From the NCBI RefSeq assembly GCF_014596475.1, contig NZ_MECJ01000015.1, positions 372,001-436,000 on the forward strand: a DNA stretch of 64,000 bases, written 5' to 3'. Positions 13,681 to 45,525 of the stretch are shown piece by piece. The notes under the pieces were generated by a model. The model worked only from the letters and a program-made list of their open reading frames with translations. It did not search any database and was not told the origin of the DNA. Both the position numbers and the translations under genes were made by a program. Source of the DNA: Streptomyces sp. CBMA152 (GTDB lineage: Bacteria > Actinomycetota > Actinomycetes > Streptomycetales > Streptomycetaceae). The first letter of the stretch is position 1, and each line of letters starts with the position of its first letter.

Positions 13681-14442
13681 TCAGCTCACGGGCAGGTGGT
13701 ACCCGAGCTTGTAGATGTGGCCCGGCTTCACCACGTCACTCACCTCGATGACACGGCGATCGTCGCTGTACACGATCCGGAAGACCTCCAAGACGGGGAC
13801 GTCGTCAGGGAGTTCCAGCAGGGCGTGCTCCTCCTGCGTCGCCTTGCGGGCGGTCACCTCGTCGGCCTGCTCGCGCGGGGGGAAGCCCATGTCTGCCAGG
13901 AGCGTCGGAGATCCGCCCGGGATTCGGCGGCGATCCGCTAGCCGCGTATCCCGGGCAAGCTCGACCGGGTAGTAGGAGTTGACCAACTCGGCCGGCTCAT
14001 CGTCGAGCAGGCCGATGCGCGAGCGCAGTACTGCCTTGCCGTTTCCGTCCAGGCCGAGTGCGGCGGCAACCCGCTTCGGAGGTGTCACCTCCGCCACGCG
14101 GAGGATCTTGTTGCTGCCGCGCTGCTCGCGGCCAGCGGCCTCGCTGACCCAGCGGTACGGCTCGCCGGGTGCCGACGGCGCCATGTAAGACGCGGGCGTG
14201 ATGATCTGCGCGGCGTCCGCTCGGACGTACACACCGCTGCCCGACCGCCCTTCAAGGAGTTCCTCGTCCTTGAGGATGTTCAGGGCGCGCTGAATGGTCA
14301 CGTTCGACGTCTCATATGCCTCGGTCAGCGCGCTGTTGCTGGGCACCTGCTGCCCGGGCTCCAACTCGCCGGACATGACGAGCGCCCGAAGGTCAGCCGC
14401 GACTCTCTCGGCAATGGGGCGCTTGTCCTTGTGCTTGGCCAT
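13681..14442 (-). CDS. GntR family repressor with UTRA domain (KorSA-like)
   Basis: 253 aa. Residues 8-75 form the GntR winged helix (IAERVAADLRALVMSGELEP, then SNVTIQRALNILKDEELLEG). Residues about 95-250 match the UTRA ligand-binding domain of the HutC subfamily, with GLLDDEPAELVNSYYPVELA and a typical end. In Streptomyces conjugative elements such as pSAM2 a GntR-type protein (KorSA) represses the transfer genes. The same job fits here, because the gene lies divergent to the transfer operon. Confidence 0.85.
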   Translation of the reverse strand: MAKHKDKRPIAERVAADLRALVMSGELEPGQQVPSNSALTEAYETSNVTIQRALNILKDEELLEGRSGSGVYVRADAAQIITPASYMAPSAPGEPYRWVSEAAGREQRGSNKILRVAEVTPPKRVAAALGLDGNGKAVLRSRIGLLDDEPAELVNSYYPVELARDTRLADRRRIPGGSPTLLADMGFPPREQADEVTARKATQEEHALLELPDDVPVLEVFRIVYSDDRRVIEVSDVVKPGHIYKLGYHLPVS

Positions 14443-14443
14443 G

Positions 14444-14974
14444 TCAGTCGACCTCGATCTCGTAGCGGATGTGCCGAGGTCCCTTCATGACCATCAGCGA
14501 TACCTCGAATGGCTGACCTCCTTGCGTGTGGGAGGTTCGGAGCAGCGTCAGGACGTTCTCGCCTTCGCGGATGTCGAGTTGCGACGCTTCCTCGGTGGTG
14601 GCGGGGCGGATGCCGACTTCCTCGGTGACCTGACGTGCCAGGTATCCGAGGTTGGCGAGAAGCGTTGGGGCTCCCCCCTGGATCTTCCGGGTTTCCGTGA
14701 GGGGCGTGCCCGCCGCGACTGATCGCGGATACCAGGAGTCGACGAGCTCGACCGGCTCGCCGCCGATCCGCATGATGCGCTGTCGCACGACGGCAGAGTC
14801 GCCGTCTTGAAGTCCGAGATTTTGCGCGACTTCAGGCGGTGGTGGCGCCTCGGCGACGGCGAGGAGTTGCTGCGATCCGCCTCGGCTGGCGCTCTCTTCG
14901 GTCCAGGCGTCGACCTGCTTGGGGCGGCGGGGGCGCACGTAGGGCAGTGAGGTGCTTGTCCATTTGTCGCTCAT
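14444..14974 (-). CDS. UTRA-domain protein without DNA-binding domain
   Basis: 176 aa from the ATG at 14974 (AAGGAG RBS). Residues about 40-175 are a UTRA-type domain: GDSAVVRQRIMRIGGEPVEL, DSWYPRSVAAGTPLTE, then a beta-rich end. The N-terminal 35 residues are Pro/Arg-rich, and the GntR winged helix is absent. It ends one base from the GntR start on the same strand, so the two are co-expressed. It may bind the effector or form mixed dimers with the repressor (inference). Confidence 0.75.
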   Translation of the reverse strand: MSDKWTSTSLPYVRPRRPKQVDAWTEESASRGGSQQLLAVAEAPPPPEVAQNLGLQDGDSAVVRQRIMRIGGEPVELVDSWYPRSVAAGTPLTETRKIQGGAPTLLANLGYLARQVTEEVGIRPATTEEASQLDIREGENVLTLLRTSHTQGGQPFEVSLMVMKGPRHIRYEIEVD

Positions 14975-20827: not shown

Positions 20828-23008
20828 GTGGCCACCGAGACAGAGCCCACCGTCGAGCAGCAGCCGGAAAAGGCCACGGAACCATCCCGCGGCGACCGGA
20901 TGAAGGCCGCGTTCGGTGTGCAGCGCGGCCACGCCCGAGCCCGCGTCGGAGAGTGGCTCGCCGCCGGCGACCTCGACGAGGCCGACGTCATCCAGATCGC
21001 CGCCGAGAAGAAGCAGCGCCAGCACGCCGCGAAGGTCGCCCACCAGGAGCGGGCCGTCGCCGAAGCACGCGGACACTTCCGACACGCCGAGAGGCGCGCC
21101 GAAGCCGGAGAGGCCATCGGCTTCGGCACCGTCGCCACGGCGGGCGGGCGCGTTGCCGCAGCAGAGTCGAGGCTCGAACACCTTCGAGCCACGCCCCCCT
21201 TGCCGCCCACCGACCGCGAGATCAACAATGTGCGGCACGGGAAGCGGGCCGGCCGCGCCGCGATCCTTGCCGGTGGCGGCCTCGCCTCCCTGCCCACGTT
21301 CGGAACGGCGATAGAGATGGCCGCCCACGGGCAGCCGCTCGTCCTCGCCGCCCTCGGTACGGCGGCTGGCTACGGCTGGTACCTCGTGTCGCGCCCTTTC
21401 GTCGACGGCCAGCCTGCATCTGCCCCGAGCATCCCGGTGCAGCTGGCCTCGCCGGTGAGCATGACGAAGTCCGAACAGCCGACCGGACAGCGGGACTTCA
21501 ACGCCCCGCCGCCGCCCGCGCTCACGGTTGAGGAGCTTGACCAGGCGCTCCGCAACATTGGCGAGGTCAGGCCGAACGAGCAGATCCAGATCCTGGCCGT
21601 GCCGCAGCGGGAGAAGGACGGCAACACCACTGTCGTCTTCGACCTGCCGCCGCGTACCACCGTTGCCGAGCTGAAGAAGAAGCTGCCCAAGCTGGCCGGA
21701 GCCCTTGGCCGCGACGTGTCCATGGTCGACGTCGAGAAGGCAGGGACGGAGGCGCGCACCTCGCTGTGGCTGACCGACACGGATCCATTCGCGGCCACAC
21801 GCCCCTCCCCGCTCCTTCGGAAGCCGACTCAGCTGGACGCCTGGAAGGACGGCGTACCCGTCGGCTGGAACAAGCGCGGCATCACCATCCGGCTGGCCAT
21901 CAACAACCAGTCGTTCGTCATCGCGGGCACCGCTCGTTCCGGGAAGGGCGTCGGCGCCTCCAACCTGGTCGTGGGCGCCGGCTTTGACCCGCGCATCAAC
22001 CTGCGGATCGTGGCCGGTAAGCAGAACGCGGAGTGGAACCCCTACGCCAAGGCGGGCGTCGCCAGCACCTACTTCAAGCCCGACCCTGCCCGCCTGCTGG
22101 CGCTCTTGAAGGCACTGCTCGCCGACAAGGACCGGCGTGAACGTGCCCTCAACGATCTCGGCAAGAGCAAGCTGGTCGCCACCATCATCGAGCAGATCGG
22201 CGGCCTGGAGTTCCTCGTCATCGACGAGCTCGCCACCTACACGCGGCCGGGCAAGCCGCTGCGTGAAGAGATCCTCGAAGCGCTGATCGAACTGTCCGCG
22301 GTCGCCCTCGGAGCGGGCATCATCCTCGTGCTGATCACTCAGTACCCGGAGGTCGACGTCATCCCGCAGGCCCTGTCCGCGAACCTTGGGGCAAAGTGGG
22401 CGATGCGCGTCGAGAACGCCACCCAGTCCAACGCCATCCTCGGCGCAGGGCAGGCGGGCGCCGGCCGGGATGCCAGCAAGTTCGATCCTCCGCGCCCCGG
22501 CTTCGGCTGGCTGGTGAACCCGTTTGCCGGGGTCACCGACCTGGCTCGCAGCTTCGATCTGGACGAGGACGAGCGCGACGAGATCACCATGCTGCTGGAG
22601 AAGGCCGCGAAGATCCGCGAGACGGCGGGCCGGCTGGCCGGGCAGTGGGACGACCCGATCGAGCAGCACCTCCTCAACGCCACCGGCCTGTCGTCGGCGG
22701 CGGGCGGCCCGAAGCGAGACGGAGTGCCGGGCCGCAACGTGCTGCACCACACGCCCGAGGAGCGCATGCAGATGGATGCCTGCCGCGGTGCGCTCGCCGC
22801 GATGCGCGAGCTGGGTCGGGACGTGGCCCAACTGGCCGAGATGACGGAACTCATCGGCGACACCATGACCGAGACGCGGCTCGGCAAGCTCCTGCGCGAC
22901 GCGGGGGCGGGCGGCACGGTCAAGGTCGACATCGACGGCGTGGGCCGCGTGAACGGCTACCAGAAGGCCGATATCGCCGACGCGCTGAGCCTCCTCGAAG
23001 GCAACTGA
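20828..23008 (+). CDS. FtsK/SpoIIIE-type DNA translocase, TraB/TraSA-like
   Basis: 726 aa from the GTG at 20828. Two hydrophobic segments at about 140-187 should anchor it in the membrane. The motor domain has a Walker A-like loop GTARSGKGVG at 367-376, in which Gly replaces the usual Ser/Thr after Lys, and a Walker B FLVIDEL at 462-468. A C-terminal segment (about 650-726) looks like the winged helix that binds clt repeats. In Streptomyces plasmids, hexameric TraB alone moves double-stranded DNA between hyphae. It follows the membrane genes and precedes candidate clt repeats. Confidence 0.88.
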   Translation: MATETEPTVEQQPEKATEPSRGDRMKAAFGVQRGHARARVGEWLAAGDLDEADVIQIAAEKKQRQHAAKVAHQERAVAEARGHFRHAERRAEAGEAIGFGTVATAGGRVAAAESRLEHLRATPPLPPTDREINNVRHGKRAGRAAILAGGGLASLPTFGTAIEMAAHGQPLVLAALGTAAGYGWYLVSRPFVDGQPASAPSIPVQLASPVSMTKSEQPTGQRDFNAPPPPALTVEELDQALRNIGEVRPNEQIQILAVPQREKDGNTTVVFDLPPRTTVAELKKKLPKLAGALGRDVSMVDVEKAGTEARTSLWLTDTDPFAATRPSPLLRKPTQLDAWKDGVPVGWNKRGITIRLAINNQSFVIAGTARSGKGVGASNLVVGAGFDPRINLRIVAGKQNAEWNPYAKAGVASTYFKPDPARLLALLKALLADKDRRERALNDLGKSKLVATIIEQIGGLEFLVIDELATYTRPGKPLREEILEALIELSAVALGAGIILVLITQYPEVDVIPQALSANLGAKWAMRVENATQSNAILGAGQAGAGRDASKFDPPRPGFGWLVNPFAGVTDLARSFDLDEDERDEITMLLEKAAKIRETAGRLAGQWDDPIEQHLLNATGLSSAAGGPKRDGVPGRNVLHHTPEERMQMDACRGALAAMRELGRDVAQLAEMTELIGDTMTETRLGKLLRDAGAGGTVKVDIDGVGRVNGYQKADIADALSLLEGN

Positions 23009-23210
23009 TATGTGAGCTTTGCCCCGAGATCAGTACCCGGACATCAGCCGGTATGCCCCGGTCTATCCACCCGGACAGGCCGAACGACACCCGGACACCG
23101 CCCGGGCCGTGTCCACCCCCTATCCAACCCCGCCTGGGGTGCAGACCGGGGCAAACCACGCCCTGTCCGAGTGAACAAACCATCATAAACACCGTAAACA
23201 GGAGACCCTG
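23009..23210. promoter_or_regulatory. Candidate clt (cis-acting locus of transfer) with three ACCCGGACA repeats
   Basis: This 200-bp non-coding stretch follows the translocase gene. ACCCGGACA occurs at 23035-23043, 23069-23077 and 23089-23097 (spacings 34 and 20). TraB of plasmid pSVH1 is known to bind 8-bp GACCCGGA repeats in clt; the copies here match 7 of those 8 bases. Near-inverted GTGTCC and CTGTCC words lie further right. The location and the match make this the likely loading site of the translocase. Confidence 0.7.
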
Positions 23211-23615
23211 ATGACCACCTACGACCGCACCCGCCGCGACGCCAAGAAGGCCAGCCGCGAACTGAAAAAGGGCGACACCTTCTACGTCACCCTCGACGTA
23301 GCCAAGAACATCGCCCCCTACGAGGACAGCCACCTCTACAGCGAGTACACCGTCACCGGCGACCACCCCCTCCTCGGCGGCGCCATGGTCGGGGGTCAGT
23401 CCGTCGAGGGCATCGTCCTGCGCGACGGACCGATCCACACCAGGCCGCCCAAGGGGCTACGGAACATCGCGTCGCCCGGCCCCCAGGACGATGCCCCGCT
23501 CGGCAGCGACTACGAGGCCTTCCTCGACGAAGCCGAACTCCGCGGTCTCGACAAGCGCGTCCGCCAGGGCAGCGACCCGCAGAAACGCGGCCGCCTCAAC
23601 TCCTGGCGCGTCTGA
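23211..23615 (+). CDS. Hypothetical protein, 134 aa
   Basis: ATG at 23211 after AGGAGAC. The first half is beta-rich (GDTFYVTLDVAKNIAPYEDS, YSEYTVTGDHPLLGG). The C-terminal half is charged and loop-like. Stop and next start overlap (TGATG). It is the first gene after the clt region; role unknown. Confidence 0.6.
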   Translation: MTTYDRTRRDAKKASRELKKGDTFYVTLDVAKNIAPYEDSHLYSEYTVTGDHPLLGGAMVGGQSVEGIVLRDGPIHTRPPKGLRNIASPGPQDDAPLGSDYEAFLDEAELRGLDKRVRQGSDPQKRGRLNSWRV

Positions 23616-30974: not shown

Positions 30975-31259
30975 CCGGGCCCGAGTACCCCCTGTTGCTC
31001 GGCCCGGTCCGCCCGGCCGTGGGGGCCGGGCGGGCTCACCCGCTCGGGGCCACTTCATTCACCCCCAGCTGAGGCCCCGAAGCCCGCTGCCCCGGTCTCG
31101 ATCCGCCGGGGCAGCGGGACCCCTTGCAGCCCCGACACCCCGACCTGCCCGGCCACCGTGCGTGCCGGGCGTTTTCGTGCCACGGCCCGCGCCTGTTCCG
31201 GTTGGGGAACTGCGGACAGGCCGGGCCGTGCGCACCCCAGTTCCCCCGCAGTTCCCCAA
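30975..31259. promoter_or_regulatory. Structured non-coding region with six consecutive hairpins; candidate packaging site or leader
   Basis: No gene is supported between 30945 and 31267. Six stems follow one another: 30975-31007; 31009-31018/31024-31033 (10 bp perfect); 31044-31051/31073-31080; 31083-31095/31106-31118 (13 bp perfect); 31147-31153/31164-31170 followed by GTTTT; and 31202-31215/31246-31259 (14 bp perfect). GGGGAACTG of the last can pair with two copies of CAGTTCCCC (31238-31246 and 31249-31257). Its place upstream of the terminase genes fits a pac/cos region. Confidence 0.5.
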
Positions 31260-31267
31260 GGAGACCA

Positions 31268-37437: not shown

Positions 37438-37512
37438 GTGACCGCCATGGGACCCGGACACCCGACACGCGCCCAGGACGTACTCCCGCTGATCGCGAAG
37501 CAGATCGGATGA
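37438..37512 (+). CDS. 24-aa ORF with good RBS
   Basis: GTG at 37438 (or ATG at 37447 with GGGGAGG upstream). It ends in TGA at 37510-37512, overlapping the next ATG. The peptide is basic and hydrophobic (RAQDVLPLIAKQIG). The overlap supports translation. Confidence 0.35.
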   Translation: MTAMGPGHPTRAQDVLPLIAKQIG

Positions 37513-43162: not shown

Positions 43163-43954
43163 TCAGCTGAAGGGCCTCACCCCCTGCCCGCTGGTGGCCT
43201 GGGTGAGCCGGTAGCTGTCTCCCTGGGTGACAACGATATGGGCATGGTGCATCAGACGGTCGACGGTGGCCGTGGCGAGTGTTTTGGGCATGATCTCGTC
43301 GAAGCCCGAGGGATGCAGGTTGCTGGAGACAGCGATTGAGCGTCGCTCGTAAGCCGCGTCGACGAGCCGGTAGAAGCCTTCCGCGGCATCCGGGGAAACG
43401 GGCAGGAGTCCGATGTCGTCGACGATGATCAGGTCCGAGCGAATAATTCTCGCTAGTGCCCGTGCGATGGAGTCGTCTGCTCGGTGGCGTCGGACGAGGA
43501 CACCCAGGTCCTCGATGGTGAACCAGGCAACGGTCAGGCCGGCTTCGACTGCGGTCTGGCCCAGCGCCTCGGTGAAGTGACTCTTTCCGGTGCCGCTGGG
43601 GCCGCAAATGCAGAAGTTTTCCCGGCGGCCGATCCATTCGAGTGTCTTAAGCGCGTCCTGTGTGGGTCGTGGAATGGATGACTTCAGTTCGTCCCAGTCG
43701 CCGAATGTCTTCCCGGTGGGGAATCCGGCTCGTTTGCGGCGGGTGTGAAGGTTAGCCCGATCTCGTCCGGCAGCTTCTTCAGCCAGCAACACGCGGACGA
43801 CTTCGGCTGGGTCCCATCTTTGTGCTTTCGCTGTGGGAATGAGGTCGCCCAATGCCCGTCGCAGGTGCGGGAGTTTGAGCCGTTTGGTCAGTTCGAGTGC
43901 CTCGGCCAGAGGGTCGCCGTTGGTGCCGGGAACGGTGCGAAGTGGTGCGGCCAT
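43163..43954 (-). CDS. istB: IS21 helper ATPase
   Basis: 263 aa. AAA+ ATPase with Walker A GPSGTGKS near residue 118 and Walker B LIIVDDIG near 173. The pattern FGDWDELKSSIPRPTQDALK before it is typical of IstB. It helps the IstA transposase with target choice and strand transfer. The start overlaps the istA stop. Confidence 0.93.
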   Translation of the reverse strand: MAAPLRTVPGTNGDPLAEALELTKRLKLPHLRRALGDLIPTAKAQRWDPAEVVRVLLAEEAAGRDRANLHTRRKRAGFPTGKTFGDWDELKSSIPRPTQDALKTLEWIGRRENFCICGPSGTGKSHFTEALGQTAVEAGLTVAWFTIEDLGVLVRRHRADDSIARALARIIRSDLIIVDDIGLLPVSPDAAEGFYRLVDAAYERRSIAVSSNLHPSGFDEIMPKTLATATVDRLMHHAHIVVTQGDSYRLTQATSGQGVRPFS

Positions 43955-45525
43955 CAGGCGAGATCACTTTCGTCGTACTCAGACGGGTCCGAGGCGGGCT
44001 GGTGGGGCTGGCCGAAGGAGGCCCAGGCGGAAGTGCCGGGCTGCAGTGAATGGTCCTCGCCGCGGCGGACAGCTTCCGTGGGACCGTGGGCAGATTGGTA
44101 GTCGAGAATCGACATCAGGTCCTTTTCGGCGAACCGGCCGGTGACCGCAGCCGTGCCCAGGGCCCGGTCGACTTTCGCGGCCGAGTAGAGCTTGGCGAGC
44201 GCGACGGCTTCGGTCATTTTTGCTTTGACCCGGCGGGCGCCGGCCGCGCCTGCTTCCACGAGCCATGATGCGGCGCCAGGACCGAGGGTGAGGAAGGCTG
44301 CCTCCTCAGCAGACCGGGCTTTGGGGATGCGATCTGCTTCTTTGTCCGCGCGGGGTGGGTAGTGGCTGTCCTCAAGGACCGGATCACCGGGGCGGCCCCG
44401 ACGATGGCGGGCGACCTCGCGAGCCGAACCACCCTCGTCGACCGCGGTGACGATCAGTTCGTCGCCGTGGAATCGGGCCCAGACCCTGGTGTCGATGAGT
44501 TCGTGCGGGACTGAATAGCGCACGGATTCCACGGAGATGCACGACTCCCAGGTCACCCGTCGTGTGGTGCCGAAAGCTGCGGTGAACGGACGACGGGGCA
44601 GAGGATGAAGTCGTTGCTGTTCCTCTGCCAACCGTTCGACCGGTTTGCGTCGAATGGCGCGGTGAATACGGGAGTTGACCTCCTCGCAGAAGTGACGGCA
44701 GGCGGCCTCCAGTTCACCGAAGGTCTTGTAGTGGTCCAGCAGGTTGACATCCGTGGGCACCAGGTCGGCCTTAGCGATGCGAACGGTGGCCTCAGAACCG
44801 CCCTTGGTCTCCGGGTCGGCTGGAATGCATGTCCGCATGGTCGTTCCGTAGTGTCGGGCGACCTCCACGATTTCGGGGTTGCGGACCGCGATTCCAGCAA
44901 TGTGATCCGTGGTGACGGTCTTCTCGTTGTCCGTCAGGACGTAGGCTGGAACCCCGCCGACCCGGCGGAACGTGGCGTCCAGACACGCGGTGATCGTCGG
45001 AAGTGTCTTGTCCCAGACCGGGATTACCACCCGGAATCGTGACCAGGCGAGCCAGGCGCACCACAGTGTCGTCTTGCGTCCTTGGATGGTCGGGCCGTCA
45101 CCCCAGTCGTATTGCAGCCACAGTCCCGGCTCGGTCACCCAGGGCCGGTAAACCCGCCGCCTTCCTGATCTGAATTGGGTTTTGGCCTCCGCGACGGTGC
45201 GGCGAGTTGTTCGTTCACCGCCGGAGAAACCCATCGCGACGATCCGTTTGTGGACCACATCGGCCCGGATCTTGCCTTGCGATCGGACTACCAGTTCTTC
45301 GATTTTCGGCAGATAGTCGTCGATGGCCCGAGCCCGGTGACGGCGGCGGTCGGGGTGCTGGCCGGCGGCCCTCAGCTTCACATAGCGGGCCACGGTGTGA
45401 TGGTCGCACCCGGCGAGCTCGGCCGCGGCGCGGTAACTCCCAGTGAGGTCGTATGCCTCAAGGATCTCCATGATCTCCCTGCTGTTCTTCACCCGCCGGG
45501 ACTTCCCAAAGCGGGACAGATCCAT
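43954..45525 (-). CDS. istA: IS21 transposase
   Basis: 523 aa from the ATG at 45525. N-terminal HTH (REIMEILEAYDLTGSYRAAA, then CDHHTVARYVKLR). Integrase core with the DDE residues: D in LQYDWGDGPTI, D in VLTDNEKTVT, E in KGGSEATVRIA. C-terminal beta barrel with VRYSVPHELIDTRVWARFHG. Complete and apparently intact. Confidence 0.93.
   Translation of the reverse strand: MDLSRFGKSRRVKNSREIMEILEAYDLTGSYRAAAELAGCDHHTVARYVKLRAAGQHPDRRRHRARAIDDYLPKIEELVVRSQGKIRADVVHKRIVAMGFSGGERTTRRTVAEAKTQFRSGRRRVYRPWVTEPGLWLQYDWGDGPTIQGRKTTLWCAWLAWSRFRVVIPVWDKTLPTITACLDATFRRVGGVPAYVLTDNEKTVTTDHIAGIAVRNPEIVEVARHYGTTMRTCIPADPETKGGSEATVRIAKADLVPTDVNLLDHYKTFGELEAACRHFCEEVNSRIHRAIRRKPVERLAEEQQRLHPLPRRPFTAAFGTTRRVTWESCISVESVRYSVPHELIDTRVWARFHGDELIVTAVDEGGSAREVARHRRGRPGDPVLEDSHYPPRADKEADRIPKARSAEEAAFLTLGPGAASWLVEAGAAGARRVKAKMTEAVALAKLYSAAKVDRALGTAAVTGRFAEKDLMSILDYQSAHGPTEAVRRGEDHSLQPGTSAWASFGQPHQPASDPSEYDESDLA

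Follow-up and report, generated by a model that had tools for sequence, protein, structure and literature searches.

The 202-bp non-coding gap that directly follows the traB-like gene in the window (the whole stretch of 64,000 nucleotides of Streptomyces sp. CBMA152 DNA that was analysed) is, judged from its sequence features and those of its relatives, very probably a clt that would be bound by TraB through a word specific to the TraB lineage. It most likely represents a further clt of known type, and the rule found at the level of the family looks new and is partly supported. The gap (23009-23210, no strand assigned) lies between the translocase ORF at 20828-23008 and an ORF on the + strand at 23211-23615, which starts right after it, encodes a protein of 134 aa and gave no Pfam or NCBIfam match. 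A candidate clt had been placed here by an earlier, sequence-only reading on the basis of three direct repeats, and its position, its repeats, its inverted symmetry, the predicted winged helix of the translocase and the layout known from pSVH1 all speak for that proposal, but the site is not merely three direct repeats.

The repeats themselves are real: ACCCGGACA is present three times in the gap, exact and on the + strand each time, at 23035-23043 (site 1), 23069-23077 (site 2) and 23089-23097 (site 3), and the copies follow the translocase gene directly, as had been claimed, in a gap that abuts its ORF. When counted elsewhere in the 64-kb window, the word was found only at 37452 and 40297, giving five occurrences against 1.0 expected (0 of 100 shuffles reached five). 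Three copies within 63 bp have a Poisson probability of 6e-10 at the genome density (215 copies in 8.80 Mb, against 108 for the backwards-read pattern), and for a triplet within 202 bp anywhere in the window the probability is about 6e-6. Pairs of CCCGGACA lying 6-36 bp apart were found at five places in the genome, as were those of the backwards control; two of the five places are the candidate clt locus, which is the sole place with three copies. As some 9-mer occurs three times within 202 bp at 12 further places in the window, clustering of repeats alone is moderate evidence only. The gap contains 25 pairs of 7-mers against 7.1 in shuffles (2 of 300 as high), a count equalled by 2 of 184 other 200-bp stretches around the window's traB. 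With the preceding base included (TACCCGGA, CACCCGGA and CACCCGGA), each copy is identical at seven of eight bases to the word of pSVH1 TraB, GACCCGGA, which a reading of the bases confirmed; the exact pSVH1 word is absent from 23009-23210, and the rest of the window has 13 copies against 6.0 expected, a count that 2 of 100 shuffles attained. This likeness, on which the sequence-only reading had drawn, stands, but as the word is lineage-specific it counts for less than the finding that each TraB lineage tends to have a word of its own.

The three direct repeats make up just one arm, the left, of a larger dyad-symmetric array. The gap forms an imperfect palindrome of about 160 bp, centred between 23103 and 23104 in a CCCGGG at 23101-23106 (no strand assigned), with 43 of 81 ungapped pairs, which none of 40 shuffles matched. 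Sites 1, 2 and 3 lie at offsets of -64.5, -30.5 and -10.5 from this dyad, and on the - strand site 1 is mirrored by ACTCGGACA, with one mismatch, at 23164-23172 (offset +64.5), while the mirror of site 3 at 23110-23118 (offset +10.5), GGGTGGACA, is half kept with GGACA retained, and the mirror position of site 2 (23130-23138) is degenerate. A frame is formed by a left arm, GCCCCGGTCT, at 23055-23064 (offset about -44; inverted repeat I1) and a right arm, AGACCGGGGC, at 23143-23152 (offset about +44), the one being the perfect complement of the other and neither having been assigned a strand. The motif matrix used for the site scan did not reach the half-kept mirror of site 3, and its consensus is not independent of the sequence-only reading, because the matrix was seeded with the word given there. 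Three features by which a Streptomyces clt is recognised, namely a position 3' of traB, short direct repeats in several copies and imperfect inverted repeats, were found in the gap. A clt is also expected to be bound by its cognate TraB, for which the association of the word with the C-terminus (see below) speaks only indirectly, and to be needed in cis for conjugal transfer. A search of the DNA at 22900-23300 against plasmids returned only two short matches, each of 12% of the query.

The ORF at 20828-23008 (+ strand) encodes 726 aa with the Walker A motif GTARSGKGVG and is, by its sequence matches, a divergent FtsK/SpoIIIE-type translocase. It matched the FtsK/SpoIIIE-like PHROG at 2.5e-30 and FtsK chains in the PDB at 1.4e-5, and matched PF01580 with 18.4 bits (E 0.0015), under the gathering score of 24, and NF041214 (plasmid_TraB) with 23.5 bits (E 1.8e-5), under the curated cut-off of 800 bits. 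The protein stands outside the curated NF041214 family and yet may work in a TraB-like way. A C-terminal winged helix, which the sequence-only reading had expected, was predicted by AF2 (AlphaFold2) for residues 631-726 (22718-23005, + strand), the presumed reader of the repeats; the model, from an alignment of four sequences, had a mean pLDDT of 85.8, a pTM of 0.76 and the order helix-helix-helix-strand-strand-helix. Its predicted recognition helix, ETRLGKLLRDA, spans residues 682-692 (helix 52-62 of the model; 22871-22903, + strand). The best matches of this model among solved structures were winged helices of Rex and MarR type (Z up to 7.8), which stood on top of the fold matches listed, FtsK gamma being absent among these; such matches indicate a shared fold and are no statement on function.

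The family was sampled from TraB relatives on named contigs and from three draws that overlapped (392, 394 and 392 genomes, of which 19, 24 and 21 matched), with 12 of the 51 plasmid records having a TraB match also fetched, and the final set consisted of 56 TraB loci, the window's own included. Excluded before these counts were L002 (own match weak), L008 and L009 (Helicobacter, distant), L025, L028, L051 and L052 (match to the N-terminus only) and L015, whose 92,592-bp contig is like that of L007 and was treated as the same plasmid. In this plasmid the TraB match lies out of a single frame (L007) or has an internal stop (L015), which would fit a broken gene or a sequencing error, and the array is well kept. 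L065-L070 are not part of the 56, three of them sharing traB DNA with L004, L006 and L007. A canonical TraB set, gathered via NF041214, came from 11 of 61 genomes and gave 13 loci, 10 of them above the cut-off.

The 200 bp after the traB stop were repetitive in 45 of the 56 loci (7-mers against shuffles, at most 3 of 300 as high, p<=0.01), and in 24 of the 56 they had the most repeated 7-mers of the whole locus. The window's word was commoner still in the gaps of several close relatives (six CCCGGAC in L003, seven copies in L065), and L004, with a TraB 77% identical, was nearly free of exact repeats (202 of 300 shuffles reached its count). An ungapped dyad beat all 40 shuffles in 42 of 56 gaps, where five control windows gave 4-8 of 56, and a dyad score of at least 14 was likewise reached in 42 of 56 gaps, against 5-16 of 56 in the control windows (16 in one of them); in L003 the dyad finder settled on a centre at 87.0, at odds with the expectation from the window. 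A frame word, GCAGGTCA / TGACCTGC with one mismatch allowed, was present on both arms in 25 of 56 loci against 0.27 expected, and on neither arm in the window's gap. In all 13 canonical loci the stop was followed by a repeat array, at a level that no more than 1 of 200 shuffles reached; six of these arrays had at least three TGACACC, and a dyad beating all 40 shuffles was found in only three of the loci.

Distances between copies, computed for 22 word classes, peaked at 10-12, 21-22, 32-33, 44, 53-54, 63-64 and 74-75 bp, a helical period of 10.6 bp whose amplitude of 87 compares with at most 31 in the five control windows and at most 42 in 60 shuffles; the canonical arrays gave a period of 10.2 bp (amplitude 65, against at most 29 in 100 shuffles). 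Relative to the dyad, copies of 17 words lay at about 7, 23, 35, 67 and 78 bp on either side, positions that the window's own sites (10.5, 30.5 and 64.5) match only roughly. The coincidence of these positions across the 17 word classes was 2.919 against a null mean of 2.818 (0 of 2000 shifts), a small effect that is partly inheritance because the classes include related loci. Site profiles aligned on the stop codon gave a broad maximum only. The polarity of copies was mostly non-significant within single loci; pooled over 45 loci, the mean |AUC-0.5| was 0.288 against a null of 0.188 (largest null mean 0.246).

Words were found to differ from lineage to lineage: CCGGAC(A) in most of the window's clade, CCGAGCAG in L006 and L007, ACCCTGCC in L016 and L020, AGGTCTGC in L021, ATGCGACG in L023 and L046, CCGGTACG in L047, GGCGAACC in L048, and CCTGACG, CCCCTGCC or CCGCCGCC in 12 loci of one genus of the same family (g14). 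In the one analysis that gave the polarity of copies and the correlations within clades, an automatic choice of word took CGGGGCA for the window, not ACCCGGACA. For each locus the nearest neighbour was determined by the C-terminal 80 residues, by the motor and by the downstream protein. C-terminus and motor disagreed in 38 of 56 loci, where the word was nearer to that of the C-terminal neighbour in 25 and to that of the motor neighbour in 12, with one tie (Wilcoxon p 4.5e-4), these discordant cases being mutually non-independent. The counts were 15 against 11 (p 0.066) when the 12 g14 loci were left out, and 24 against 13 (p 0.001) when L007 was, whose match is not confined to one frame and so leaves a motor segment of 166 aa against a median of 257. 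C-terminus and downstream protein disagreed in 45 of 56 loci, with 36 in favour of the C-terminus and 9 in favour of the downstream protein (p 3.8e-7); this became 26 against 8 (p 3.4e-4) without the g14 loci, and 32 against 9 of 41 (p 5.3e-6) without the four loci of the 56 that have no downstream ORF and for which this similarity had been set to 0.

The association of word and reader was strongest within g14, on whose loci the comparison with the motor leans. Among these 12 loci, whose motors have a similarity of 0.88-0.99, the partial correlation of word with C-terminus given motor was 0.57 (0 of 2000), and in the window-like clade (14 loci) it was 0.41 (15 of 2000). Global rank partial Mantel tests over all 56 loci failed to separate C-terminus from motor, with a weak r of 0.085 (77 of 1000) for word against C-terminus given motor and an r of 0.193 (0 of 1000) for word against motor given C-terminus. 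One locus, L042, is closest to L040 by motor and to L034 by C-terminus, and its word is that of L034 and L039; in the viral contigs L065, L066 and L069 the word fits the C-terminal type as judged by eye. L033 and L055 pair CCGGAC-type words with C-termini of different build, so that similar words may arise repeatedly, and linkage could mimic covariation of word and reader because the C-terminal codons adjoin the array. These comparisons suggest that a change in the tip of TraB tends to go with a change in its site, which, if true, could help to explain how elements keep their transfer systems apart.

The palindrome might act instead as RNA or as a single strand, either once transcribed, between traB and the gene that follows it (attenuation or processing), or as a single-strand origin, with the repeats simply following from self-complementarity. 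We consider this improbable, although folding is strong: the fold energy of the + strand beat shuffles in most gaps, with z < -2 in 50 of 56 and < -3 in 44 (median -4.5), and the window gave z values of -3.03 for 180 nt and -2.45 for 202 nt, the latter equalled by 3 of 200 shuffles. Because of this strength an RNA or single-strand role keeps its small share of probability, and an RNA role may also exist in addition to that of a clt. Self-complementarity does not predict copies in the same orientation inside one arm, nor a spacing of 10.6 bp, nor an association with the C-terminus of TraB, and the canonical gaps are repetitive and phased and mostly have no dyad (3 of 13 do). Searched against Rfam, 22900-23400 had no match at E up to 1.

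Repetition of a word together with inverted symmetry would also suit an operator array for a regulator of the operon, or iterons for a replication protein. Regulator genes are at hand, with a GntR protein with a UTRA domain encoded on the - strand upstream of traB at 13681-14442, followed by a UTRA domain alone at 14444-14974 (PF00392, PF07702), and with a GntR gene annotated in 5 of the 12 fetched plasmid regions. No ACCCGGACA was found near the GntR genes of the window, however, and in the post-traB gaps, the only gaps compared, the word tracks the C-terminus of TraB more closely than it does the downstream protein, which makes an operator or iteron array quite unlikely. Chance repeats in GC-rich intergenic DNA, for which the other 9-mer triplets of the window and the two equally repetitive stretches among 184 could be cited, are exceedingly improbable in view of the still more numerous copies of the same word in L003, L065 and other close relatives and of a window dyad that outscored 40 of 40 shuffles.

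For a clt bound by TraB, the preferred reading of the gap, we infer binding, loading and transfer in cis as follows. The C-terminal winged helix of TraB would bind the ACCCGGAC(A) copies, which are inverted on one arm of the palindrome relative to the other, and the bound copies would be spaced by about whole helical turns. Once bound, TraB could load its hexameric motor onto the double-stranded DNA of the element itself, which would then be pumped into the neighbouring hypha. Over evolution, reader domain and word would change together, with the layout largely kept.

In its widest form, which we hold tentatively and with slightly less than even confidence, the proposal is that TraB elements share a general and swappable address system, in which a C-terminal reader and a clt word in multiple copies sit on a conserved scaffold that is helically phased and, in the window's lineage, mirror-symmetric. 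Reader and word would be exchanged jointly, at times through recombination that spares the motor (L042), so giving each element its own transfer identity, and some of these systems would reside in elements with phage head genes. The rule points to a clt, as a repetitive post-traB gap, in most of the TraB elements examined (45 of the 56 loci and all 13 canonical ones). It pairs this clt with a reader domain and so renders transfer specificity testable by swaps of domain and word, and for each TraB it gives a prediction of the chromosomal sites open to mobilisation.

Downstream of the transfer operon, at 34189-54363 of the window, there are phage genes, among them those for a terminase large subunit (34189), a portal (35790), a major capsid protein (41174) and a tape measure protein (51220), with a possible protease (39297, weak). 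When 18 TraB genomes or loci were searched for relatives of the capsid protein, only the window's own and one in L003 (59%) were found; the L003 genome also has a portal (48%), and its capsid and portal genes are on contig C17, presumably the contig of traB, about 10 and 16 kb away. Among six viral contigs with TraB, the portal family was present in one and the terminase family in one, and phage records searched at E 1e-3 contained no relative of the window's TraB. TraB and clt may ride in phage-like elements. A minus-strand gene at 43954-45471, with rve and Mu-transposase C domains, lies between the capsid and tail genes and may interrupt the head-tail module; it is adjoined by a minus-strand ORF at 43163-43954, with which we take it to form an IS21-like pair. 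Two further observations in the window are a set of repeats at 31195-31260 (two CAGTTCCCC and one complement, GGGGAACTG), in the gap preceding a gene (31268) that matches ParB_N weakly, which could be an operator or partition site, and a tRNA-Leu(gag) gene of 73 nt at 2332-2404 among small genes, which we take to be short for a tRNA-Leu and which is perhaps element-borne.

FtsK gamma is the C-terminal winged helix of a hexameric double-stranded DNA pump and reads the 8-bp polar KOPS, which are spread over the chromosome. The window's TraB would resemble it as a hexameric double-stranded DNA pump with a C-terminal winged helix, whereas the sites in the window, unlike KOPS, are clustered and mirror-symmetric. 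In the clt and TraB literature that was searched, mostly outside subscription journals and available in part, no description was found of helical phasing, of a mirror-symmetric clt layout or of covariation between word and reader. The available parts of that literature present a clt as a set of short repeats to which TraB binds (PMC3583192, PMC4170104, PMC9513070, PMC5133688, PMC3218068, PMC6722414, PMC12857230), and differing repeats are listed for pIJ101, pJV1 and pWTY27 in the accessible text of one report (PMC3583192). According to the same excerpts, the clt of pJV1 has nine CCGCACA[C/G][C/G] and, like that of pIJ101 and like the gap, several short direct repeats with imperfect inverted repeats (PMC3583192); the words are unrelated, and the systems are set side by side here by description, not by sequence. 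In pWTY27, as excerpted there, four TGACACC lie inside a region that the TraA protein protects from DNase I (PMC3583192), and its clt resembles that of the window in occupying the 3' end of a tra gene with the adjoining non-coding DNA and in having short direct and inverted repeats; it differs in its word, and the canonical TraB gaps, several of which have TGACACC, mostly have no long dyad (3 of 13).

The closest known counterpart is pSVH1, the TraB of which is reported, in the parts of the sources available, to recognise GACCCGGA (PMC5133688) and to read it via helix alpha3 of its C-terminal winged helix (PMC3583192). As a positive control, the post-traB gap of this S. venezuelae plasmid (L053 in our set) contained five of the six GACCCGGA of a 9.1-kb stretch and was palindromic (49 of 81 pairs), in line with the rest of the set. 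The word of the window, ACCCGGACA, differs from that of pSVH1, and BLASTP shows the two C-termini to be unlike (E 0.27), with only RV[N/T]GY in common. The gap shares with the clt/TRS of pSVH1 its place right after traB (228 bp in pSVH1), the core ACCCGGA(C) and the palindrome, and the translocase shares with pSVH1 TraB that wing motif in its C-terminus.
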